Origin: a virus
IMG/VR virus record: IMGVR_UViG_3300037584_002964
Coordinates: 1 to 22,046 of that record
Reading direction: 5' to 3' (one strand)
Length of the DNA stretch: 22,046 bases
The position numbers were made by a program, and so were the translations under genes. This document shows positions 3,304-20,259 of this stretch, piece after piece (position 1 is the first letter of the stretch; every line of letters starts with the position of its first letter). Below the pieces are notes generated by a model. That model did no database searches. It was not told where the DNA came from and was given only the letters and a program-made list of their open reading frames with translations.

Positions 3304-3340
3304 AAAGGGTTACCCGAAACGGTAGCCCTTTACTTTTGGT
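3304..3340 (+). terminator. Intrinsic terminator after the 65-aa gene
   Basis: AAAGGGTTACC (3304-3314) pairs with GGTAGCCCTTT (3321-3331) through an 11-bp stem with one G-U pair and loop CGAAAC. A short T-rich tail follows. Confidence 0.75.
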
Positions 3341-3516
3341 GTTAATTTTTATTTTAATGGTGTTGATTTGGTGTTGATTATTTATAGCTAACTACTTGAT
3401 TATCAGTAGTGGTGTTAATAATGTTGATTTTTAAGTCTCGTATGTAGAATAAAAAATAAGAAGTAATAGGAATATATATATAGTATAGCGACACCATTTT
3501 TCAACACCTCAACACC
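3338..3516. repeat. Iteron-like GGTGTTGAT array with inverted copies
   Basis: Direct copies: GGTGTTAAT (3338), GGTGTTGATT (3359 and 3370), GGTGTTAAT (3411) and a partial copy ATGTTGATT (3421). Inverted copies: ACACC (3491) and two adjacent TCAACACC (3501-3508 and 3509-3516). The paired direct copies at 3359-3379 and paired inverted copies at 3501-3516 face each other across about 120 nt. The array fills the non-coding region between a terminator and the groEL promoter. It could be protein-binding iterons of an origin or an operator for groEL. Confidence 0.6.
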
Positions 3517-3535
3517 TTTAGTATATTTTTTTTTC

Positions 3536-3543
3536 TATCTTTG
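3536..3543 (+). promoter_or_regulatory. -7 box TATCTTTG for groEL-groES
   Basis: TATCTTTG lies 22 nt before the groEL start codon, with a T-run just upstream. The leader is A/T-rich with no Shine-Dalgarno sequence. The TCAACACC pair ends 19 nt before the box, placing it over the expected upstream promoter region. Confidence 0.6.
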
Positions 3544-3565: not shown

Positions 3566-5173
3566 ATGAATCAACAACAAGGATACTCTCCTAAAGATTT
3601 AAACTTTGGAGAGACAGGACGTAATAAGTTAAAGAGTGGTATCACTAAAATTTCAGAAGCAGTAAAGAGTACACTAGGACCTAGGGGTAATACTGTGTTG
3701 ATTGAATCGCCACAGCACACCTCAAGTATAACAGTTACTAAGGATGGTGTTACTGTAGCTAAGGCTGTTGATCTAATGGATCCGGTGGAGAACTTAGCGG
3801 TCAAGATGATGAAGCAAGCTGCGGATAAGACCGCAAGTGTTGCAGGAGATGGAACAACTACAGCGATAGTATTAACTGAGGCTATTGTGAAGGCGGGTGA
3901 TTATTTTATGAATGATGATCACAATAGAACTGAGGTATTAAGAGAATTGAACAGAGCGAAAGATTATGTTGTTGAGTCCTTACAGAAAGACTCACAAGAT
4001 TTGAGTGCGAAAAAGTTACAGGATGTAGCTACTCTATCAGCGAACAATGATAGCTTTATAGGTGAGTTGATAGCAAAGACATATAGTGAAGTGGGCAAGG
4101 ATGGTATAGTAACGGTTGAGAAATCACAGAGTGCTGACACTTACTACGAGAGCACTAATGGTTTAAAAGTAGATAGAGGATATTCATCTGAGCTGTTTAT
4201 TAATAATCACAAAAAGGATGAGTGTATATTTGATGACGTTAGGATCTTAACATCAGATGCTGAGATAAGTAATGTCTTACAGATTGAGGCGGTATTGAAA
4301 CCACTCATATCAGACGGGAAGAAGCTATTGATCATTGCACCTTGTTCACAGAACGTGATCAATACACTAGCTGCCAATGTGATGAAGAACAATTTAAAGA
4401 TATGTGTAATACAGCCACCTAACTTTGGCTACAAGCAGCATGAGCTGATGAGTGATATTGCTGTGGCTGTAGGTGGGAAATATTTCTCAGAGAAGACAGG
4501 CGATGATCTGAGCTTAATAAACTTCGGTGACTTGGGTTATGCATCAAGAGTGATCGTGGGCAGGAACTCATCGGTTATCATCAAGGATGACAATCGTACA
4601 ACTGAGGATGTTCAGAAGAGAGTAGATGAGTTGTGGGATGCTCACGCCATCACAGAGAAGAAACAAGACAAGGAATTTGTGCTGTCGCGAATTGCCACCC
4701 TTACGGGCGGCATAGGTGTTATCCACGTTGGAGGCGATACTGACATACAACAAAAGGAGTTGTATGATAGAGTTGATGATGCTGTATGTGCAGTACGCTC
4801 TGCACTTGAAGATGGTATATTACCGGGAGGAGGTGTTTCATTAATGCATTACGCTAGTTACTATGATAATAAAAAATCAAATGATAAGAATAAAAAGGTA
4901 GCGTATAAGATAATGGCTCAAGCATTAGCAGCACCTGCTAATCAGATTTTAGTTAATGCAGGGAAAGACATAGAGAAGATATACAAGAACTTACCTCCTA
5001 CCAATCATGGTTATGATGTGAAGAATGAAAAGAACGGAAACTTGATTGAGATGGGTGTAGTTGATCCGACAAAGGTTACAAAGAACGCACTGATCAATGC
5101 AATGTCAGTAGCGACAACCATACTAAGTACAAATGCAATAATCACAATGGCACGCAGTTATGAAACCAATTAA
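3566..5173 (+). CDS. groEL: Phage chaperonin GroEL
   Basis: A 535-residue chaperonin 60, the ATP-driven folding barrel subunit. Visible family motifs: STLGPRGNTV near residues 35-44, TKDGVTVAK with D60, AGDGTTT with D95, and RVDDAVCAVRSALEDGILPGGG with D405. These three Asp match D52, D87 and D398 of E. coli GroEL, which handle Mg-ATP and hydrolysis. The apical region (about 190-375) keeps DRGY (203-206) and hydrophobic L210/F211 but is otherwise divergent, for example PPNFGYKQHELMSD. The protein ends SYETN and lacks the Gly-Gly-Met tail of most bacterial GroELs. It overlaps groES by 14 nt. Chaperonin activity is likely but the client is unknown. A virion protein is the natural guess. Confidence 0.95.
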   Translation: MNQQQGYSPKDLNFGETGRNKLKSGITKISEAVKSTLGPRGNTVLIESPQHTSSITVTKDGVTVAKAVDLMDPVENLAVKMMKQAADKTASVAGDGTTTAIVLTEAIVKAGDYFMNDDHNRTEVLRELNRAKDYVVESLQKDSQDLSAKKLQDVATLSANNDSFIGELIAKTYSEVGKDGIVTVEKSQSADTYYESTNGLKVDRGYSSELFINNHKKDECIFDDVRILTSDAEISNVLQIEAVLKPLISDGKKLLIIAPCSQNVINTLAANVMKNNLKICVIQPPNFGYKQHELMSDIAVAVGGKYFSEKTGDDLSLINFGDLGYASRVIVGRNSSVIIKDDNRTTEDVQKRVDELWDAHAITEKKQDKEFVLSRIATLTGGIGVIHVGGDTDIQQKELYDRVDDAVCAVRSALEDGILPGGGVSLMHYASYYDNKKSNDKNKKVAYKIMAQALAAPANQILVNAGKDIEKIYKNLPPTNHGYDVKNEKNGNLIEMGVVDPTKVTKNALINAMSVATTILSTNAIITMARSYETN

Positions 5174-5417
5174 TAAATACATTATCGTAAAGGGAATTAA
5201 CGAGGAGATGAAAACAGGCTCCGGGCTGTTATTATCAGCAGAGGATGTAAACTCATTTAGATACAAGAAGGGCAAGGTGATAAAGCCGGGCACTGAGGTT
5301 CATGACATAAATGAGGATGACGTAATCTACTATGACAAGCGAGCAGGTCACTCAATGCTTATTGATGACAAGCCTGTTACCATTATTCTTGAGAGGGACG
5401 TTGTCGTAGTCGTCTAA
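5160..5417 (+). CDS. groES: Phage co-chaperonin GroES
   Basis: An 85-residue chaperonin 10-like protein, the lid partner of GroEL. It begins MKPINKYIIVKGINEEMKTG. A mobile-loop-like segment SGLLLSAEDV (about residues 21-30) carries three hydrophobic residues where classical GroES has Ile-Val-Leu. The GKVIKPG strand, DDVIYYDKRAG and a hydrophobic end (ILERDVVVVV) follow the Cpn10 plan. It is shorter than E. coli GroES (97). The start lies inside the groEL 3' end, giving a coupled pair. The 3' end overlaps a convergent minus-strand gene by 35 nt. Likely forms a heptameric lid for the phage GroEL. Confidence 0.88.
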   Translation: MKPINKYIIVKGINEEMKTGSGLLLSAEDVNSFRYKKGKVIKPGTEVHDINEDDVIYYDKRAGHSMLIDDKPVTIILERDVVVVV

Positions 5418-5820
5418 ACTCATTCATCTTCATAATCATATTGCGATATGTCTTATCGGTATATCGCACATTCTTTTTGAAGAGGGGATTAGTTTGAGGA
5501 TCTACTGACAATTCAGCACCGCTCAGTTTGTTATATATATCAGTGAGTAGTTTCTGTGACTTGTATGTTAGCTTATATATTGTCTCATACTTCCTTGGTC
5601 TTTTAGAGAACACTTCTAGCCAACCATTAGCGAGAAGATATGTAAAGCGTTTCTTATTCCATGAGACAAGTTGATTGAACTCATCAAACTTCTTTTTAGT
5701 AAAATACTTTTCTGATTTTAGGAACAGAAGCATATCAAGATCTGCTGCTTTCATGTCGTGCTTACGGAGGTAGTAATACTTAATCACCCTCCAATACTTG
5801 AGGTAGTCGTTATCATGCAT
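5383..5820 (-). CDS. Putative winged-helix DNA-binding protein
   Basis: A 145-residue basic protein beginning MHDNDYLKYWRVIKYYYLRK. The central part (about 23-95: DLDMLLFLKSEKYFTKKKFDEF, then KKRFTYLLANGWLEVFSKRP) has the helix-helix-recognition-helix-wing order of MarR-like winged-helix proteins, where 'L-x-x-GWLEV' often marks the wing. The C-terminal tail is Arg-rich. It is the only minus-strand gene in the right part of the window, convergent with groES (35-nt overlap) and divergent from the structural units through interleaved promoters. This is a typical position for a regulator of late genes. Target unknown. Confidence 0.6.
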   Translation of the reverse strand: MHDNDYLKYWRVIKYYYLRKHDMKAADLDMLLFLKSEKYFTKKKFDEFNQLVSWNKKRFTYLLANGWLEVFSKRPRKYETIYKLTYKSQKLLTDIYNKLSGAELSVDPQTNPLFKKNVRYTDKTYRNMIMKMNEFRRLRQRPSQE

Positions 5821-5884: not shown

Positions 5885-6211
5885 ATGGCAACATTAAAAA
5901 GTCAAAAAATGGTGAGTATGAGAGATACAAAAACACCACTAGCTAAATCAGTAATGGATAAACCTCTAAAAAACGGTAACGGTAACGGTAACGGTAACGG
6001 TAAAAAAGGAGGACCGGCAGATCCAAAGTTAAAACAATCAAAAAAGGGAACTGTAAATATTTATGGTAAAGACGGAAAATTTATGAAGGAAATGTCTCTT
6101 AAGGCGTTTCGTGATCTTGATAAAGCAACCACTAAAAAAACAGGTAATCCGGCTTCAACATATATGAGAAAAGTTAAGGGAGGAGTTCAATACACAAAAA
6201 AATTAAATTAA
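5885..6211 (+). CDS. Small basic protein with Asn-Gly repeat, 108 aa
   Basis: A 108-residue, very basic protein beginning MATLKSQKMVSMRDTKTPLA. Residues 30-39 are five Asn-Gly dipeptides, followed by KKGGPADPKLKQSKKG and a folded-looking C-terminal part (NIYGKDGKFMKEMSLKAFRD, then TYMRKVKGGVQYTKK). The high Lys content suggests DNA or RNA contact or a virion-internal role. Family not recognised. It opens the plus-strand late region behind the promoter at 5836-5843. The repeat is a perfect hexanucleotide microsatellite that could change length without breaking the frame. Confidence 0.75.
   Translation: MATLKSQKMVSMRDTKTPLAKSVMDKPLKNGNGNGNGNGKKGGPADPKLKQSKKGTVNIYGKDGKFMKEMSLKAFRDLDKATTKKTGNPASTYMRKVKGGVQYTKKLN
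5972..6001 (+). repeat. Hexanucleotide repeat (AACGGT) x5
   Basis: Five perfect AACGGT units inside the gene at 5885-6211 encode Asn-Gly repeats. A six-base unit keeps the reading frame when copies are gained or lost. Confidence 0.9.
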
Positions 6212-7659: not shown

Positions 7660-8124
7660 ATGGCATACCAAAAATTACAAGCCCGTAGAGCATTAGCAGT
7701 AATAACAAGCGATACTATTGACATTCCAAACCCTGCAGCGACAGCAGCAACAGGAACAGCAGCCGCACCTACAGGCGCTCAGTTAGTGGGTACAGGAACA
7801 AACTTCCTTACAACTGTAAAGGTGGGTGATATTATATATGCAGGAACTATTGTAGCTACAGTAGATGCAGTAGTAAGCGACACAGTTCTTACTACATCTA
7901 CAGCTATTACAGCAGGTTTAACATATACTATATATTCTCAAACTGACAATCCAAGTAACGGATGTGTTTTATTTGCAGGCGGAGCAGGAGACATAAACCT
8001 GATCACTGTAGATGATGACACTGTGTTATTCAAAGGAATTGTGGCAGGACAGTTTTTACCTGTACAGGTAAAAAGAGTAAAAGCTACAAGCACTTCAGCG
8101 ACTGACATTGTTGCATTATGGTAG
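7660..8124 (+). CDS. Virion decoration/fibre-type protein, 154 aa
   Basis: A 154-residue Ala/Thr/Val-rich beta protein. The N-terminus is MAYQKLQARRALAVI. Residues about 20-45 are Ala/Thr/Gly-rich. The segment from about 45 (GTGTNFLTTVKVGDIIYAGT) to LTYTIYS resembles the small beta-barrel found in phage particle proteins. The end, LFKGIVAGQFLPVQVKRVKA with TDIVALW, matches the C-terminal pattern of capsid or tail decoration proteins in which a V-x-RV-x-AT-xT strand closes the fold. Its stop overlaps the start of the lectin-like gene. Role in the particle surface is an inference from composition and context. Confidence 0.65.
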   Translation: MAYQKLQARRALAVITSDTIDIPNPAATAATGTAAAPTGAQLVGTGTNFLTTVKVGDIIYAGTIVATVDAVVSDTVLTTSTAITAGLTYTIYSQTDNPSNGCVLFAGGAGDINLITVDDDTVLFKGIVAGQFLPVQVKRVKATSTSATDIVALW

Positions 8125-8807
8125 GAGGCGGACTAGCAAATATGATAGGAATGACTACCTGTGGCGGACAAGCCGGAACAGGTGAAGGCTTTACAAATTT
8201 ATATTCAACAGAATATGACGGAGTTGATGATGAAGTAAATTTTAATAGTTTTAGTTTTTCAGGTGCTTTTACTTTGTCCTTTTGGTTAAAACCTTCTGCA
8301 TTTAACAAGTACATAATTGGAACGCAATCTTTAACAAGAAATTTTATAAAACTACATAGTGCCACAGATATTAGAATAAGACAGGAACTTACTCAAAAGA
8401 ATTTTACTGAAAGTTCTAATGTTATGGTTTTAAATCAATGGCAACATTTATTGTATGTAAGAGATGCAAGTAATAATGTATCACTTTTTAGAAATGGTGC
8501 AGCTTTTGGTAGTTCTGCTACAAATAATAAGACATTTATTATTGACACTATTAGTGGCTTGGCTAACAATTTTTATTACGAGGGTAATATTGATGAGTTT
8601 GCTTTATGGAATAGTGACCAAAGTTCTAATATTTCTGCTATTTATAATAGTGGAGTTCCAAATAATCTCAATGATTTAAGCACTCCTCCTTTATGTTGGT
8701 ATAGGTTCGAAGAGGGTAGCGGCACAACAGCAATAGATAGTGGAACAGGTGGCAATAACGGAACTTTAATAAACGGAACTGCATATAGTACAGACGTACC
8801 AACTTAA
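8118..8807 (+). CDS. LamG/concanavalin A-like lectin domain protein
   Basis: A 229-residue protein with one laminin-G-like jelly-roll domain. After a Gly-rich leader (1-25) come the first strand YDGVDDEVNF (33-42), FTLSFWLKPS (51-60), NQWQHLLYVRD (about 107-117), SLFRNGA (122-128), GNIDEFALWN (156-165) and the closing CWYRFEEGSGTTAIDSG (193-209). These are hallmark positions of LamG_3-type sugar-binding domains. No signal peptide. Likely a virion surface lectin that binds host or environmental glycans. It overlaps the upstream decoration-like gene by seven bases, suggesting joint production. Confidence 0.85.
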   Translation: MVGGGLANMIGMTTCGGQAGTGEGFTNLYSTEYDGVDDEVNFNSFSFSGAFTLSFWLKPSAFNKYIIGTQSLTRNFIKLHSATDIRIRQELTQKNFTESSNVMVLNQWQHLLYVRDASNNVSLFRNGAAFGSSATNNKTFIIDTISGLANNFYYEGNIDEFALWNSDQSSNISAIYNSGVPNNLNDLSTPPLCWYRFEEGSGTTAIDSGTGGNNGTLINGTAYSTDVPT

Positions 8808-11860: not shown

Positions 11861-12424
11861 ATGCAATCACCTGACAGGTTTATAGTTCGCCCTATAAAAG
11901 GGAAGAGGTATAATAACACTAAAGATATTGGAGGGCTAGAATTTATTACTAGCACCTCTGAAGAAGATTTTAAGTTCTCTAATAGAGAGGCTGAAGTAAT
12001 GTCTGTTCCTTTAAATTATAAAGGAGAGATAGAGAAAGGAGATGTTTTACTTGTTCATCACAATGTATTTAAGTTTTATAACGACATGAAGGGCAGGAGG
12101 CAAAGTGGTAGGAGTTTTTTTAAGGATGATTTATTCTTTATTGAAGACGAACAGTTCTATATGTATAAAAAGAATGGCAAGTGGAAAGCTCATGGAAGGA
12201 ATTGTTTTATAAAACCATCTGCAGTAAGGAAAAGTTTTATAGATAAGCCGGGTGAGTATGAGCCTTTAATAGGAACAGTGAAATATATTAATGAAGAGTT
12301 AATAAAGTTAGGAGTAAAAGAAGGAGATGAGATTTCATTTCAACCTGAAAGTGAATATGAGTTTAGAGTAGATGATGAGATTTTATATAGGATGTTTACA
12401 AATAACATTACATTTATAGTATAG
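11861..12424 (+). CDS. GroES-like (Cpn10-fold) protein, 187 aa
   Basis: A 187-residue protein whose N-terminal half follows the co-chaperonin plan: SPDRFIVRPIKGKRY (3-17), a mobile-loop-like GGLEFITSTSEED (24-36), REAEVMSVP (42-50), IEKGDVLLVHHNVF (57-70) and DDLFFIEDEQF. The C-terminal half has LIGTVKYINEEL (136-147), LGVKEGDEISF (150-160) and VDDEILYRMFTNNITFI, again a GroES-type barrel pattern. It may therefore be a double-barrel GroES-like protein, roughly twice the size of the phage GroES at 5160. It sits two genes upstream of the terminase. It could be a specialised lid for the phage GroEL or a structural protein using the same fold. Similarity is by pattern only. Confidence 0.55.
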   Translation: MQSPDRFIVRPIKGKRYNNTKDIGGLEFITSTSEEDFKFSNREAEVMSVPLNYKGEIEKGDVLLVHHNVFKFYNDMKGRRQSGRSFFKDDLFFIEDEQFYMYKKNGKWKAHGRNCFIKPSAVRKSFIDKPGEYEPLIGTVKYINEELIKLGVKEGDEISFQPESEYEFRVDDEILYRMFTNNITFIV

Positions 12425-12716: not shown

Positions 12717-12942
12717 AGAATTAATAAAAGTTGCTCAAGAAGAAATAATAAAGCCTGACCCTGAAGATGAGCTTGCTGCAGATAGATTAAAGAATGCTGC
12801 GGCTACAAAGAAACTAGCCATCATAGATGCGTTTGATATATTAAAACGTATAGATGAAGAGAAAGAAAAATTAGATTACGAAGGAACAGGAACAAAACGA
12901 ACAGACACAAAACAAGGATTTGCAGAGCGAAGATCAAAATAA
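12652..12942 (+). CDS. Possible small terminase subunit, 96 aa
   Basis: A 96-residue charged helical protein directly before the large terminase. The start is taken at ATG 12652 (behind an A-rich leader), with ATG 12661 a close alternative. The core (AGKKAVKELIKVAQEEIIKP, then AADRLKNAAATKKLAIIDAF and DILKRIDEEKEKL) resembles the proteins that commonly precede the terminase in phages of this kind. Small terminases recognise the viral DNA, but I see no clear helix-turn-helix, so this is a positional call. It overlaps both neighbours: 65 nt upstream, 23 nt downstream. Confidence 0.45.
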   Translation: MTTMESNQLKLKIIEAGKKAVKELIKVAQEEIIKPDPEDELAADRLKNAAATKKLAIIDAFDILKRIDEEKEKLDYEGTGTKRTDTKQGFAERRSK

Positions 12943-15166
12943 TTTATACAGAGTAGTAAAGGATTATATCCCTGCTAAAAAAATAGCTCGTTATAACAAG
13001 CTAAAGAAGTGGGACTATGGATATAATAAAGATTATGACGTAGTTGTTATTTCTAAGAATGGAACTATTGGTGAGATTATTTGTATTAGTGGTTTGTATA
13101 TAGCCCTTCCTTCTGTTCCTAGTAAAGTGTATTCAAGAAGTAAAAAAACAAGCGAACAATATTGGGAAAGAAAAGATTATGATCGGAGTTTAAGCAGAAT
13201 CAATTCTATATTTCAATGGAATGAAATGCCAAGAGACTTTAAGGATAAGTGGGTAGACTACATTGAAAAAGAGTTTGACAGTAGAGATTACGGACATTGG
13301 TTTAAAAACAATGGAACACCTACTTATATTACAGGAGCACACTATATGTATTTACAGTGGACAAAGATTGATGTAGGTTATCCTGACTACAGAGAAGCTA
13401 ATAGAATATTCTTTATATATTGGGAGGCTTGTAAAGCTGATAAGAGATGCTTTGGCATGATATACTTAAAGATAAGACGTTCAGGTTTTTCATTCATGGG
13501 TTCAGCAGAAGCTGTCAATACAGCAACTATTGCAAGAGACTCAAGAGTAGGTATCTTGTCTAAAACGGGAGCAGATGCAAAGAAGATGTTTACCGATAAG
13601 GTAGTTCCTATATCTCATCACTTACCTTTCTTTTTTAAGCCTATTCAAGATGGTATGGACAAACCAAAGACTGAATTAGCCTACAGGGTTCCTGCCTCTA
13701 AGATTACAAAAAAGAATATGTATGATGTAGACAACGAGGAAATTCAAGGGCTTGACACTACAATAGATTGGAAGAATACTGATGACAACTCTTATGATGG
13801 TGAGAAGTTGTTACTACTTGTACATGATGAGAGTGGTAAATGGCTAAAGCCTAACAATATATTAAATAATTGGAGGGTAACTAAAACTTGTTTAAGGTTG
13901 GGTAGTAAGATAATTGGAAAGTGCATGATGGGATCTACATCAAATGCTTTAAGTAAAGGGGGTGGTACTTTTAAAAAACTATATGAAGACTCTAATGTAT
14001 TGAAAAGAAACTCCAATGGCATGACAAAGAGTGGTATGTATTCTTTATTTATTCCTATGGAGTGGAACATGGAGGGTTTTATAGATAGATATGGATGTCC
14101 TGTATTTAGAACACCTAAGACACCGATAAGAGGAGTGGATGATGAGATGATTGACTTTGGTGCAGTAAACTATTGGGAGAACGAGGTCACATCTTTAAAG
14201 AGTGACCCTGATGCACTTAATGAATTTTATAGACAGTTTCCTAGAACAGAGTCTCATGCCTTTAGAGATGAAAGTAAATCTTCTTTATTTAATCTTACTA
14301 AGATATATCAGCAGATAGATTACAATGACTCTTTAATACAAGACCATCATACAACAAGAGGGTCATTTCATTGGTTGAATGGAGAGAAAGATACTAAGGT
14401 AGTATTTAGTCCTGATAAGAGAGGCAGGTTCCTTGTAAGTTGGACTCCTGAGAAAGCCTTACAAAATAGAATCATCATTAAGAATGGAATTAAATATCCT
14501 GCCAATGAACATCTAGGTGCGTTTGGGTGTGACTCGTATGATATATCAGGAGTAGTAGGTGGGGGTGGATCTAATGGTGCGTTACATGGTGTAACTAAAT
14601 TCAATATGGACAATGCTCCAAGTAATGAGTTTTTCTTACAGTATGTTGCACGACCACAAACGGCTGAGATATTCTTTGAAGAAGTATTAATGGCTTGTGT
14701 TTTTTATGGTATGCCAATACTTGCAGAGAATAATAAACCAAGAATACTTTATCATTTTAAGAATAGAGGGTATAGAGGCTTTTCAATGAATAGACCTGAT
14801 AAAGTTTATACGAAGCTCTCTAAGACCGAAAGAGAGCTAGGAGGGATACCTAATACCTCTGAAGATGTAAAACAATCTCACGCTGCAGCTATTGAGTCTT
14901 ATATTGAAAAGTATGTAGGCATAGACATGGAGGGAACATATAGGGACAGTGATGCAATGGGATCAATGATATTCACAAGGACATTGGAAGATTGGGCAAG
15001 ATTTGATATAAATAATAGAACAAGATATGATGCGACAATAAGCTCAGGACTAGCTGTAATGGCTATTCAAAAACACTTATATCAACCTGAGAAAAAAGAG
15101 TCAAAAATAAGCATTAACTTTGCAAGGTATAATAACAAGGGAAGAACAAGCGAATTAATAAGATAG
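12920..15166 (+). CDS. terL: Terminase large subunit
   Basis: A 748-residue DNA-packaging motor: ATPase followed by an RNase H-like nuclease. Likely Walker A is KIRRSGFS (184-191). It lacks the usual GK[S/T], as in phage lambda gpA (KSARVGYSK), where the key Lys is shifted upstream. Walker B is LLLLVHDE with D303/E304, followed by a coupling-motif-like MMGSTSN (336-342). The nuclease has GCDSYD with D538, acidic MPILAEN (E603), and TSEDV near 647-650. The N-terminal about 100 residues are an additional region. The start is TTG at 12920. The open frame has no ATG or GTG upstream before the stop at 12872, and the next ATG is at residue 103. It packages DNA into the procapsid through the portal. 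Confidence 0.93.
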   Translation: MQSEDQNNLYRVVKDYIPAKKIARYNKLKKWDYGYNKDYDVVVISKNGTIGEIICISGLYIALPSVPSKVYSRSKKTSEQYWERKDYDRSLSRINSIFQWNEMPRDFKDKWVDYIEKEFDSRDYGHWFKNNGTPTYITGAHYMYLQWTKIDVGYPDYREANRIFFIYWEACKADKRCFGMIYLKIRRSGFSFMGSAEAVNTATIARDSRVGILSKTGADAKKMFTDKVVPISHHLPFFFKPIQDGMDKPKTELAYRVPASKITKKNMYDVDNEEIQGLDTTIDWKNTDDNSYDGEKLLLLVHDESGKWLKPNNILNNWRVTKTCLRLGSKIIGKCMMGSTSNALSKGGGTFKKLYEDSNVLKRNSNGMTKSGMYSLFIPMEWNMEGFIDRYGCPVFRTPKTPIRGVDDEMIDFGAVNYWENEVTSLKSDPDALNEFYRQFPRTESHAFRDESKSSLFNLTKIYQQIDYNDSLIQDHHTTRGSFHWLNGEKDTKVVFSPDKRGRFLVSWTPEKALQNRIIIKNGIKYPANEHLGAFGCDSYDISGVVGGGGSNGALHGVTKFNMDNAPSNEFFLQYVARPQTAEIFFEEVLMACVFYGMPILAENNKPRILYHFKNRGYRGFSMNRPDKVYTKLSKTERELGGIPNTSEDVKQSHAAAIESYIEKYVGIDMEGTYRDSDAMGSMIFTRTLEDWARFDINNRTRYDATISSGLAVMAIQKHLYQPEKKESKISINFARYNNKGRTSELIR

Positions 15167-17602
15167 ATGAAAGACGTTAAGATAAATATATCCTCAGCAG
15201 GATTTCCAAATCAGTTTGTATCTGATGCGGAAAAAGCAACCGATCAATATGGATTACAAATCGGTCAAGCCATTCAGTATGAGTGGTTTAGAAAAGACGG
15301 AAGCCAATGTAGATTTTACAATCAGTTTGCAAACTTTAATAGATTAAGGTTGTATGCTAGAGGTGAACAGTCAATAGCTAAATATAAAAATGAAATAGCT
15401 GTTGATGGTGACTTATCTTATTTGAATCTTGATTGGACTCCCGTCCCTATACTCCCTAAGTTTGTAGATATAGTTGTTAATGGTATGGCAGATAGACTAT
15501 TTAAAGTTAATGCCTACGCACAAGATGCTGTGTCTCAAGCTAAAAGAAGTAAGTATCAGGAGATGGTAGAATCTCAAATGAATGCTAGAGATATACTAAG
15601 CCTAGTTAAAGAAGAGTCAGGAGTTGATCCTTTTATTATGCCTGAAGAAGAACTACCAAAAACAGATGAGGAGCTTAGTTTATTCATGCAAGTTAACTAC
15701 AAGCCTGCAATAGAGATAGCTGAAGAAGAAGCTATTGACACCTTGCTTGAAGCCAACCACTATCAAGACCTAAGAAAAAGATGCGACTATGACCAAATGG
15801 TATTAGGTGTATCTATGGCAAAGCATGAGTTCTTACCGGGAGCAGGAGTGAAGGTGTCTTATGTAGATCCGGCTAATGTAGTTTATAGCTATACTGAGGA
15901 CCCTCACTTTAAAGATTGTTTCTATTGGGGTGAGATTAAAACACTTCCTATAACAGAGCTTTTAAAAATTGATCAAGACCTAACTAATGAAGACTTAGAG
16001 GAAATAAGCAGTCATAGTCAAAATTGGTATAACTATTATAATGTTGCTCAGTTCTATGAGAATAGTTTATTCTATAAAGACACTTGTACTTTATTATATT
16101 TTAATTATAAGACCACTCAAAAGACTGTATATAAAAAGAAATACTTTGAAGGAGGAGGAAGCAAAGTAATTGAGAAAGATGATAGCTTTAACCCACCTGC
16201 AGAAATGATGGAAGAGGGTAAGTTTGAAAAAATAGAGAAGACTATTGATGTGTGGTATGAAGGGGTAATGGTAATGGGTACTAATATTATATTAAAGTGG
16301 GAGCTTGCAAAGAACATGGTTCGACCTAAGTCTGCAACTCAACACGCTATACCTAATTATATTGCTGTAGCACCACGAATGTATAAAGGAAACATTGAGT
16401 CGCTTGTAAGAAGAATGATTCCATTTGCTGACTTAATTCAAATAACTCATTTAAAAATACAACAAGTATTATCAAGAGTAGTTCCTGATGGTGTATTTAT
16501 AGATGCTGATGGATTGAATGAAGTAGATCTTGGAACAGGAAATGCTTACAATCCTGAAGATGCATTAAGATTGTATTTCCAAACAGGTAGCGTTATCGGT
16601 AGAAGCTATACTCAAGACGGTGAGTTTAATCAGGCAAGAGTGCCTATTCAAGAATTAAATAGTAACTCAGGAGGCGGAAAGTTAAATATGTTGGTTAACA
16701 ACTACAACCATTACTTAAACATGATAAGGGATGTGACAGGACTAAATGAAGCAAGAGACGGTTCATCACCTAATCCTAATTCATTAGTTGGTTTACAAAA
16801 ACTTGCAGCGTTAAGTTCTAATACAGCAACACGCCATATCCTAAACAGCAGTTTATATATGATGAGAACTTTAGCTGAAGGACTTACATATAGAGTAGCA
16901 GACATATTAGAGTACGCTGACTTTGCTGATGAGTTCGCAAATCAAATAGGTAAGTATAATGTAGCGAGACTTGAAGATATAAAAGATCTTTACATATATG
17001 ACTTTGGTATTTTTATAGAGGTTAGTCCTGATGAAGAAGAGAAAGCTATGCTTGAACAAAACATTCAAATGGCCTTATCTCAAAAGGATATTAACCTTGA
17101 GGATGCTATTGACATTAGAGAAGTTAAAAATATAAAACTTGCTACTCAACTATTAAAGGTTAAAAGAAAGCAGAAGCAAGAGCATGATGACTTTATGGCT
17201 ATGCAGGCACAACAGATGCAAGCACAGCAACAGATGCAAATACAGCAGATGGCTGCACAGTCCGCACAAGAAAAGATTCAGGCTGAAACACAATCTAAGA
17301 TTCAAATCAAAGAAGCTGAGATACAGTTTGAGGTGCAGAAAATGCAAGCTGAAGCACAACTTAAACGTCAGCTAATGGCTGAAGAGTTTGCTTACAATCA
17401 AGAGCTAAGGGGAATGAGTGAGACTGCTTTACAAGAAAGAGAAAGTCAAAGGGAGGTGGCTAAGTCTGACAGGATAACACAACAGAACAATCAACAGTCT
17501 AAATTGATCAATCAAAGGAAGAATAATTTACCCCCTCAAACCTTTGAATCTAATGAAGATAGTTTAGATGGCTTTGACCTTGCAGAATTTTCTCCAAGGT
17601 AG
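15167..17602 (+). CDS. Portal protein
   Basis: An 811-residue portal: the dodecameric ring at the capsid vertex through which terminase threads DNA. Evidence: immediate position after the terminase (zero spacing), length near 800 as in podovirus and crAss-like portals, an N-terminal region with YLNLDWTPVPILPKFVDIVV then NGMADRLF, a typical core (DPANVVYSYTEDPHF, then IPFADLIQITHLKIQQVLSR, about 420-440) and a DVTGLNEARDGSSPNPNSLV segment. From about residue 665 to 775 the chain is a Gln/Ala/Met-rich helix (QAQQMQAQQQMQIQQMAAQ), like the long barrel or crown of portals. No internal truncation seen. Confidence 0.88.
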   Translation: MKDVKINISSAGFPNQFVSDAEKATDQYGLQIGQAIQYEWFRKDGSQCRFYNQFANFNRLRLYARGEQSIAKYKNEIAVDGDLSYLNLDWTPVPILPKFVDIVVNGMADRLFKVNAYAQDAVSQAKRSKYQEMVESQMNARDILSLVKEESGVDPFIMPEEELPKTDEELSLFMQVNYKPAIEIAEEEAIDTLLEANHYQDLRKRCDYDQMVLGVSMAKHEFLPGAGVKVSYVDPANVVYSYTEDPHFKDCFYWGEIKTLPITELLKIDQDLTNEDLEEISSHSQNWYNYYNVAQFYENSLFYKDTCTLLYFNYKTTQKTVYKKKYFEGGGSKVIEKDDSFNPPAEMMEEGKFEKIEKTIDVWYEGVMVMGTNIILKWELAKNMVRPKSATQHAIPNYIAVAPRMYKGNIESLVRRMIPFADLIQITHLKIQQVLSRVVPDGVFIDADGLNEVDLGTGNAYNPEDALRLYFQTGSVIGRSYTQDGEFNQARVPIQELNSNSGGGKLNMLVNNYNHYLNMIRDVTGLNEARDGSSPNPNSLVGLQKLAALSSNTATRHILNSSLYMMRTLAEGLTYRVADILEYADFADEFANQIGKYNVARLEDIKDLYIYDFGIFIEVSPDEEEKAMLEQNIQMALSQKDINLEDAIDIREVKNIKLATQLLKVKRKQKQEHDDFMAMQAQQMQAQQQMQIQQMAAQSAQEKIQAETQSKIQIKEAEIQFEVQKMQAEAQLKRQLMAEEFAYNQELRGMSETALQERESQREVAKSDRITQQNNQQSKLINQRKNNLPPQTFESNEDSLDGFDLAEFSPR

Positions 17603-18792: not shown

Positions 18793-20259
18793 ATGGCAGT
18801 TTTAGCAACACCGGGATTTGACTTACAACCAAGTGCACAACAGGTCCCAACATCAACAAACTACATTACCGATTTTAATTTCTTGAATCAGTATCTACCT
18901 GATACTTATGAAAAAGAATTTGAAAGATATGGTAATAGAACAGTAGCATCTTTCCTTAGAATGGTAGGAGCAGAGATGCCTTCAAACTCAGACCAAATTA
19001 AATGGGCAGAGCAAGGAAGATTACACATAAAATATACTAAAGTAGGATCAGCAGCTCTTGCAGCAGCAACTACGGCAACATTGCAAATAAATGATGATCC
19101 TGTCCCTGCAGGTTTAGCAGCACCACAAGGTAGCACAGCAGGAACTCCTTTCAACGCTAGTCATGGTATTGCACTCAGAGTTGGACAAACAATTATGTTA
19201 GTTCCAAATGCAGGAGGTGCAAGCAACAAAGCTGTAATCACTGCAGTAAACGGAACTCTTACTCAATGTACAGTAGCGTTCTACGATAATGGTGGTTTAG
19301 CAGTGGCAGGTACAGGTGTAGGTAATGCAGACTATACTTTATTTGTTTATGGTTCTGAATTTAAAAAAGGAACAGAAGGAATGGCAGGAAGCCTTGAGTC
19401 AGATGACTTTATCTTCGCTAACAATCCTATCATTATCAAAGATACTTATGCAGTATCAGGTTCTGATATGGCTCAAATCGGATGGATCGAGATCTCAACT
19501 GAAGACGGTGGATCAGGATACCTTTGGTATTTAAAATCTGAGCATGAGACAAGACTACGTTTTGAGGATTACTTAGAAACAGCAATGATCGAAGCAGTTC
19601 CTGCAACTACAGCAGCAGGTGGATCCGGAGCAGCAACAGCAGGCTTCATGGGATCTGAAGGTATTTTCTACGTGGTAGAGAATAGAGGTAATGTATGGGG
19701 TGGAGGTAACCCTGTAGCATTAGCTGACTTCGATGCAGTTATTCAAAGATTAGACAAGCAAGGTTCTATTGAAGAAAATGTTATCTTCTTGAATCGTCAG
19801 TTTAGTTTTGATATGGATGATATGTTAGCAGCTCAAAACTCTTACGGAGCAGGTGGTACGTCTTACGGACTATTTGACAACGATGAGGAGATGGCTCTTA
19901 ACTTAGGATTCTCAGGATTCAGAAGAGGATATGACTTCTACAAAACAGATTGGAAATACTTAAATGATCCAACAATGAGAGGTGGTATTGACGGAGCAGG
20001 TGTAGGAATCAATGGACTATTAGTTCCTGCAGGTTCAACTTCTGTATATGACCAAATCCTTGGAAAGAATGCAAAACGTCCTTTCTTACACGTACGTTAC
20101 AGAGCTTCTGAAACAGAAGACAGACGATACAAATCTTGGGTTACAGGTTCAGCAGGAGGTGCAAGAACTTCTAGCTTAGATGCAATGGAAGTAAACTTCT
20201 TATCTGAAAGAGCAGTTTGTACGCTTGGAGCGAACAACTTCTTCTTATTCAAAGACTAA
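18793..20259 (+). CDS. Major capsid protein (HK97-fold)
   Basis: A 488-residue protein with features of HK97-fold capsid subunits. Residues 20-60 (TSTNYITDFNFLNQYLPDTY then FERYGNRTVASFLRM) are an N-arm. The region about 80-185 (VGSAALAAATT, then GIALRVGQTIMLVPNAGGAS) is a Gly/Ala-rich beta insertion. An E-loop-like section and spine helices follow (DFDAVIQRLDKQGSIEENVI). The C-terminus is HVRYRASETEDRRYKSWVTG with DAMEVNFLSERAVCTLGANN. This last pattern resembles the capsid proteins of marine and crAss-like phages. A strong terminator follows directly, and codon use is skewed to abundant simple codons, as expected of a highly expressed gene. Confidence 0.88.
   Translation: MAVLATPGFDLQPSAQQVPTSTNYITDFNFLNQYLPDTYEKEFERYGNRTVASFLRMVGAEMPSNSDQIKWAEQGRLHIKYTKVGSAALAAATTATLQINDDPVPAGLAAPQGSTAGTPFNASHGIALRVGQTIMLVPNAGGASNKAVITAVNGTLTQCTVAFYDNGGLAVAGTGVGNADYTLFVYGSEFKKGTEGMAGSLESDDFIFANNPIIIKDTYAVSGSDMAQIGWIEISTEDGGSGYLWYLKSEHETRLRFEDYLETAMIEAVPATTAAGGSGAATAGFMGSEGIFYVVENRGNVWGGGNPVALADFDAVIQRLDKQGSIEENVIFLNRQFSFDMDDMLAAQNSYGAGGTSYGLFDNDEEMALNLGFSGFRRGYDFYKTDWKYLNDPTMRGGIDGAGVGINGLLVPAGSTSVYDQILGKNAKRPFLHVRYRASETEDRRYKSWVTGSAGGARTSSLDAMEVNFLSERAVCTLGANNFFLFKD

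Follow-up and report, generated by a model that had tools for sequence, protein, structure and literature searches.

A phage locus with GroEL, a short GroES and a Cpn20-like protein may encode a dedicated, probably single-ring folding machine

Chaperonin genes of a podovirus-type contig

The window analysed here is a stretch of 22,046 nt from an IMG/VR virus record (IMGVR_UViG_3300037584_002964), in which terminase, portal and head genes lie beside the chaperonin genes; it is a podovirus-type phage contig, and the chaperonin locus is a phage locus. The gene for the terminase large subunit (terL; 12920..15166, plus strand; phrog_6681, 2e-172) is followed on the same strand by those for the portal protein (15167..17602; phrog_6547, 2e-144) and for a 488-aa virion structural (head) protein (18793..20259; phrog_13704, 2e-99), which is probably the major capsid protein and could plausibly be a client of the chaperonin. 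The nearest named genome is MW202828, a podovirus from Manatee Spring (TerL 75%, GroEL 62% and two-domain protein 62% identical), and the next nearest are the flavobacterial elemo phages and the Cellulophaga phages. The phage probably belongs among viruses of marine Bacteroidota, with a host probably in the Flavobacteriia.

Several other features were observed in the window. A Laminin_G_3 (concanavalin A-like lectin) domain protein is encoded in the structural region at 8118-8807 (plus strand; PF13385, 6e-14), and a small basic protein at 5885-6211 (plus strand) has an (NG)n run from a GGTAAC tandem repeat. On the minus strand, 217-2521 holds a series of small genes with near-identical A-rich leaders (about AACTAAAAACAAATAAG) before their ATGs; these leaders overlap the end of the upstream gene, and the products of several of the genes end in ITKNK or similar. 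A DUF805b RNA, a candidate cis-regulatory motif (Rfam RF02914, 39.1 bits, over the gathering score), lies at 1026-1061 on the minus strand.

The groEL gene (3566..5173, plus strand) encodes a 535-aa group I chaperonin and groES (5160..5417, plus strand) an 85-aa co-chaperonin, each starting with ATG. Both frames are intact and overlap by 14 nt. GroEL matches Pfam Cpn60_TCP1 over residues 29-528 (2e-59, 202 bits against a cut-off of 34.3) and the phage chaperonin family phrog_5725 (2e-126), while GroES matches Cpn10 (4e-9, 36.7 bits against a cut-off of 21.1) and phrog_3188 (2e-15). An earlier sequence-only reading of this DNA had proposed a complete phage-borne GroEL-GroES pair, and with both frames open and both products above the Pfam cut-offs our results agree. 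It had also singled out the overlap of the frames. This is ordinary coupling, and we rejected any special meaning for it, since the spacing varies widely across relatives, from overlaps of 14-17 nt in the nearest and 4 nt in others to a full range of -44 to +2095 nt. GroES is encoded next to GroEL and is conserved with it across relatives, and all three chaperonin genes described here are under purifying selection (dN/dS 0.05-0.12; 0.12 for groEL).

A repeat search of the non-coding leader of groEL found three to four degenerate direct copies of GGTGTTRAT (3335..3430, plus strand) and an inverted copy at 3502-3525, which together form a possible operator. A pattern scan located a Bacteroidota-type -7 element (TAnnTTTG), TATCTTTG, at 3536..3543 (plus strand), 22 nt upstream of the groEL ATG. 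It is the position of this element that suggests a promoter of their own for groEL and groES; the TAnnTTTG pattern overall is not enriched relative to shuffles (39 versus 31, s.d. 5.9). TATCTTTG itself occurs on the plus strand at 3536, 5836, 6813, 10029, 21090 and 21472, at roughly 15-45 nt upstream of ORF starts, a placement that fits a Bacteroidota-type promoter. At the far end of the pair, an antisense gene (5383-5820, minus strand; phrog_17028) overlaps the 3' end of groES with its own 3' end by 35 nt, and its counterpart in MW202828 is annotated as a 'repressor protein'.

The LLL triplet reported earlier for the GroES mobile loop is real (S21-G22-L23-L24-L25-S26). G22 and L25 are invariant in 39 relatives, and the loop of the short GroES reads KTSSGLLLS in the clade. 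A normal Cpn10 fold with a mobile loop is predicted, by an AF2 model of pLDDT 91.6 that matches Thermus Cpn10 with Z 11.5. Compared with bacterial GroES, the roof beta-hairpin is absent through an 8-9 residue deletion; this hairpin is not required in a GroES, as T4 gp31 is also roofless (PMC6318259).

A third chaperonin component, overlooked by the sequence-only reading, lies outside 3566-5417 and about 6 kb away. This gene (11861..12424, plus strand) encodes a 187-aa two-domain, Cpn20-like co-chaperonin and has terL 0.5 kb downstream; in all lineages seen, it stands directly before terL or one or two small ORFs away. The protein falls into phrog_13932, 'co-chaperonin GroES' (1e-22). Its AF2 model (pLDDT 89.9) has Chlamydomonas CPN20 as the best PDB match (7ekq_R; Z 9.9, rmsd 4.2 over 158 residues, 13% identity), with residues 1-187 aligned structurally to CPN20 11-193, and single-domain GroES structures rank after it, matching the C-domain. 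The C-domain is GroES-like by sequence (hhalign probability 91.7%, E 8e-7). The N-domain is undetected by GroES profiles (hhalign probability 3.6%), and it is the AF2 model and the resemblance of its loop that make it appear GroES-like. Relatives pass the Pfam Cpn10 cut-off of 21.1 bits (phi18:3 with 33.3 bits, phi40:1 with 24.1 bits), whereas the window protein stays below it at 16.5 bits and is thus described as Cpn20-like rather than as a Cpn20.

The N-domain loop spans 29-33 residues and in most members carries GG and then [ILV][ED][FL] (GG-LEF-I in the window); in phi18:3 it reads KTESGLELH, close to the loop of the clade's short GroES. Since the middle residue of the E. coli GroES triplet I25-V26-L27 tolerates Asp (PMC5575113), the [ILV][ED][FL] triplet could in principle dock. 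The C-domain loop is shorter (17-20 residues) and has a weaker S-[YF]-I motif. According to the depositors' annotation of phi40:1 and phi18:3, several neighbours of the two-domain protein are virion proteins annotated by MS/MS, and the two-domain protein is not among them.

Constant and altered residues of the clade GroEL

For GroEL, we compared a clade of 81 members, 61-100% identical to the window protein, with 78 bacterial sequences, and used 34 clade representatives under 80% identity as a subset. The mean column entropy of the two sets is nearly equal (0.99 bits for the clade and 0.97 bits for the bacterial GroELs). The catalytic aspartates D60, D95 and D405, described as kept by the sequence-only reading, do align with E. 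coli D52, D87 and D398. In E. coli numbering, T30, D52, D87, D398 and the TTT of 89-91 are the same in the window GroEL and in 81 of 81 clade members, and D495 is likewise invariant across the clade. By domain and catalytic residues, the protein is classed as a group I chaperonin. The absence of a GGM tail also stands: the protein ends in MARSYETN, and GGM-type tails occur in none of the 81 clade members versus 63 of the 78 bacterial GroELs. The claim of a divergent apical region holds in part, as its identity to E. coli is lower (32%) but the rest is little better (37-39%).

Six positions in E. coli numbering, K105, A109, R452, E461, S463 and V464, which we take to be the ring-ring contacts of GroEL, are conserved in bacteria and variable in the clade. 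Their mean conservation loss is 2.08 bits; of 20,000 sets drawn at random from residues of similar conservation, either overall or in the equatorial domain only, none reached this value. Within the clade these positions average 2.96 bits versus 0.99 bits over all columns, and the loss of conservation persists in the 34 representatives. The alignment of the window protein to E. coli GroEL is gap-free at all six, which read Y, D, N, D, E and K in the window, and charged residues take the place of V464 and A109 in the clade. The GroEL of phage SJC03 retains the bacterial inter-ring residues.

The E. coli single-ring GroEL was made by changing precisely R452, E461, S463 and V464 (PMC5575113, PMC12696368), and a resurrected single-ring ancestor has V464E (PMC12696368). 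The E. coli mutant stays locked to its GroES and becomes functional only with a weakened lid contact (PMC5575113). Loss of the inter-ring residues does not by itself imply a single ring, because human mitochondrial Hsp60 is without the same salt bridges and can still form double rings (footballs) in its cycle (PMC5575113). The combination of lost inter-ring conservation with invariant catalytic residues predicts that the clade GroEL probably works as a single ring.

The groove for GroES docking is rewritten. L234 is replaced by E in 79 of the 81 clade members and by D in the other two, E238 by K and V264 by A in all 81, V263 by A in 74, and Y203 by L or M in all 81. In the cavity wall, E252, D253 (deleted) and E255 are lost, and D359 is now K. 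A groove that is rewritten yet nearly invariant within the clade points to a private lid, and host GroES should fit it poorly. A cycling single-ring system would be expected to show just this combination of lost ring contacts and a less hydrophobic groove.

Linkage, origin and known systems

All 24 long contigs (>50 kb) chosen by GroEL alone also encode GroES and the two-domain protein, and seven of the eight contigs chosen by the two-domain gene have GroEL and GroES. A profile of the two-domain gene is accompanied by GroEL in 35 of 36 records. The trio is also present in elemo, phi40:1, Panino and MW202828; a search of IMG/VR with the Panino two-domain protein gave no matches. The exceptional contig (G028, the contig of L183; 54 kb) has the two-domain gene, and GroEL and GroES were not found in it; on its left side, 9 kb of sequence precede the two-domain gene, usually enough to include groES. 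On the contig of L027 (G010:C1:44689-45239, minus strand), the two-domain gene is split over two overlapping frames that contain stops, through either disruption of the gene or an error in sequencing.

Cellulophaga phages phi18:3 and phi19:3 encode a short GroES and a homologue of the two-domain protein (hhalign E 8e-12 in phi18:3). No GroEL was detected at E up to 0.1 in phi18:3, phi19:3 or Tenacibaculum phage Gundel_1, with control genomes giving matches, and Pfam searches of Gundel_1 found no chaperonin-system genes. The lids of phi18:3 and phi19:3 are presumably used with host GroEL, as in T4. Because both lids are kept there without a GroEL, the two-domain gene would be tied to chaperonin work generally and not to one GroEL. 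We also considered a GroES or two-domain gene in the crAss-like phage cr108_1 and rejected it: the gene before the terminase and two ORFs after groEL are not Cpn10-like, and a weak PF00166 match at 14073-14255 is below the cut-off.

GroEL clusters with phage sequences, as the sequence-only reading had anticipated. The clade is monophyletic (support 100/100) and, with elemo and Panino, stands apart from all bacterial GroELs sampled; long branches leave the exact position of elemo, Panino and phi40:1 unsure. The protein is also far from near-identity to a host groEL (34-38% over the 78 bacterial sequences).

The rarity claimed for phage GroEL-GroES pairs was overstated. Such pairs, and the GroEL of this phage group, are already published (PMC5332604, PMC7185714): GroEL was reported in the phi38:1 group in 2017 in 36 environmental genomes (PMC5332604), and PMC7185714, with reference to Marine et al. 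2017, mentions phages that have both GroEL and GroES. Pervagoviridae have cpn10 among their core genes (PMC8776804), and the Panino paper names both GroEL and GroES (PMC11590407). The biochemically studied phage chaperonins EL, OBP and AR9 are lidless (PMC5934643, PMC9598537). The literature searched, with the main viral chaperonin survey of Marine et al. 2017 outside its scope, describes no phage two-domain lid, nor any phage GroEL that is predicted to be single-ring and has lids of its own. The pair itself is already known; what is new is the three-part composition, the clade-wide loss of conservation at the ring contacts and the fixed new lid groove.

Cellulophaga phi38:1 and phi40:1 (Pervagoviridae; group 2 of PMC5332604, PMC8776804) belong to the same wider phage group as the window, and phi40:1 has GroEL, a short GroES and the two-domain gene before terL. 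The phi40:1-type GroEL differs, being about 30-44% identical per domain to that of the window, and the excerpted accounts of the phi38:1 group mention GroEL and 'chaperonin cpn10' and say nothing of a two-domain lid or of a lost ring interface (PMC5332604, PMC8776804). The Flavobacterium elemo phages (Elemovirus) likewise have GroEL, GroES and, directly before terL, an annotated second 'co-chaperonin GroES' of 180 aa, although their GroEL and two-domain protein are only 36% and 38% identical to those of the window. T4 gp31 and RB49 CocO are also phage-made GroES proteins (fold match Z 9.1-9.6); gp31 is roofless, has a lengthened loop and serves the folding of the major capsid protein (PMC6318259). 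T4 relies on host GroEL, whereas the window phage encodes GroEL and a second, two-domain lid.

EL, OBP and AR9 have phage GroEL-like barrels too, which are single-ring or ring-splitting (PMC5934643, PMC9598537). They work without a lid, and the identity of EL to GroEL is about 22-25%; the window, in contrast, encodes two lids and a GroEL about 36% identical to bacterial ones, and its two co-chaperonin genes argue against membership of this type. Chloroplast and apicoplast Cpn20 resembles the two-domain protein in having two GroES-like domains per chain and gives the best full-length structural match, but identity is 13% and the phage C-domain loop is shortened (17-20 residues versus 29-33 in the N-domain). 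Human mitochondrial Hsp60-Hsp10 shares the loss of conserved inter-ring salt bridges and a weaker lid contact (PMC5575113); it is without a two-domain lid, and double rings occur in its cycle.

A candidate two-lid machine and its alternatives

As far as sequence can tell, the three genes are intact and under purifying selection, they stay linked throughout the phage group, and GroEL retains its ATPase site. We propose that they probably encode a dedicated phage folding machine for late proteins, likely single-ring and with two lids. Its three parts would be a GroEL barrel powered by ATP, a lid formed by the short GroES that has no roof, and a GroES-like lid of two domains from the late (packaging/head) block. 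Unfolded late phage proteins would bind the barrel, and capsid or portal subunits would be the likeliest clients, a guess from gene position. ATP would swing the apical domains up, and the phage lids would dock by their mobile loops on the private, less hydrophobic groove (E234, K238, A263 and A264 in E. coli numbering). The barrel would mainly be a single heptameric ring, since conservation has been lost at the residues that join two rings, and the weakened groove would let the lid leave without a second ring. The missing GGM tail, the roofless GroES and the disappearance of most of the charges that line the cavity would fit a larger or different chamber. The two-domain protein, with one good mobile loop per chain, may be an alternative lid, possibly with its C-domains as a second tier. 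A more specific version, which we offer as speculation and hold to be rather improbable, is a natural single-ring GroEL with a true GroES cycle and alternative lids, either the short roofless GroES or a seven-fold two-tier lid of double-domain chains that would enlarge the chamber for capsid proteins.

The two-domain protein may not serve GroEL at all, and could instead be a GroES-fold factor for packaging or head-tail functions, or cap another seven-fold ring, for example ClpP. The structure that it matches best belongs to the Chlamydomonas ClpP complex 7ekq, chloroplast CPN11/20/23 are thought to cap ClpP, and every lineage seen has the gene immediately before terL or very close to it. We consider this unlikely, while granting it a substantial chance: GroEL accompanies the gene in nearly every record with the profile, the phi18:3 N-loop is very like a GroES mobile loop, and the protein has no MS/MS virion annotation in phi40:1 or phi18:3. 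Alternatively, the pair could be a conventional double-ring GroEL-GroES whose presence in a phage is incidental, with the interface rebuilt from other residues and the two-domain gene a side issue. A rebuilt interface should be conserved in the clade, and the positions are instead highly variable, with charged residues replacing V464 and A109. Given that mitochondrial Hsp60 forms football double rings without the conserved salt bridges (PMC5575113), and that other phages have pairs (immuto and Bacteroides phage SJC03, the latter with bacterial inter-ring residues), this reading keeps a modest chance of being right.

That a host chromosomal groESL was captured recently, or that the contig is itself chromosomal, was rejected as barely credible. 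A 3430-bp contig of a Cytophagales MAG (L235; WTJX01000705.1) could suggest it, encoding a 65% identical GroEL and the same type of GroES; this GroEL nests inside the phage clade, and the contig is most simply phage DNA in the bin, or else a prophage. The best true cellular GroEL matches are 34-39% identical, the window has TerL, portal and head genes, and the E. coli reference order is groES-groEL, the opposite of that in the window. A role of the phage GroEL as a decoy or inhibitor, one that would mix with host chaperonin or titrate it, is also very improbable. Group I subunits can in principle co-assemble, and the apical groove is altered, but a decoy needs neither the invariant ATPase residues nor the low dN/dS of groEL nor a matched GroES, all of which are kept.

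If the clade GroEL is, as we favour, mainly a single ring working with its own lids, it would bear on a long-standing question, as a single-ring GroEL with a lid has so far been addressed mainly through mitochondrial Hsp60 and engineered mutants. A large phage clade appears to have carried out the single-ring experiment in the course of its evolution, with the catalytic site frozen, the ring contact released, and the groove rewritten and then refrozen. The related phages form a natural gradient of chaperonin independence, from no chaperonin genes found, through two lids without GroEL, to the full set, and this gradient makes it testable why phages carry their own chaperonin.
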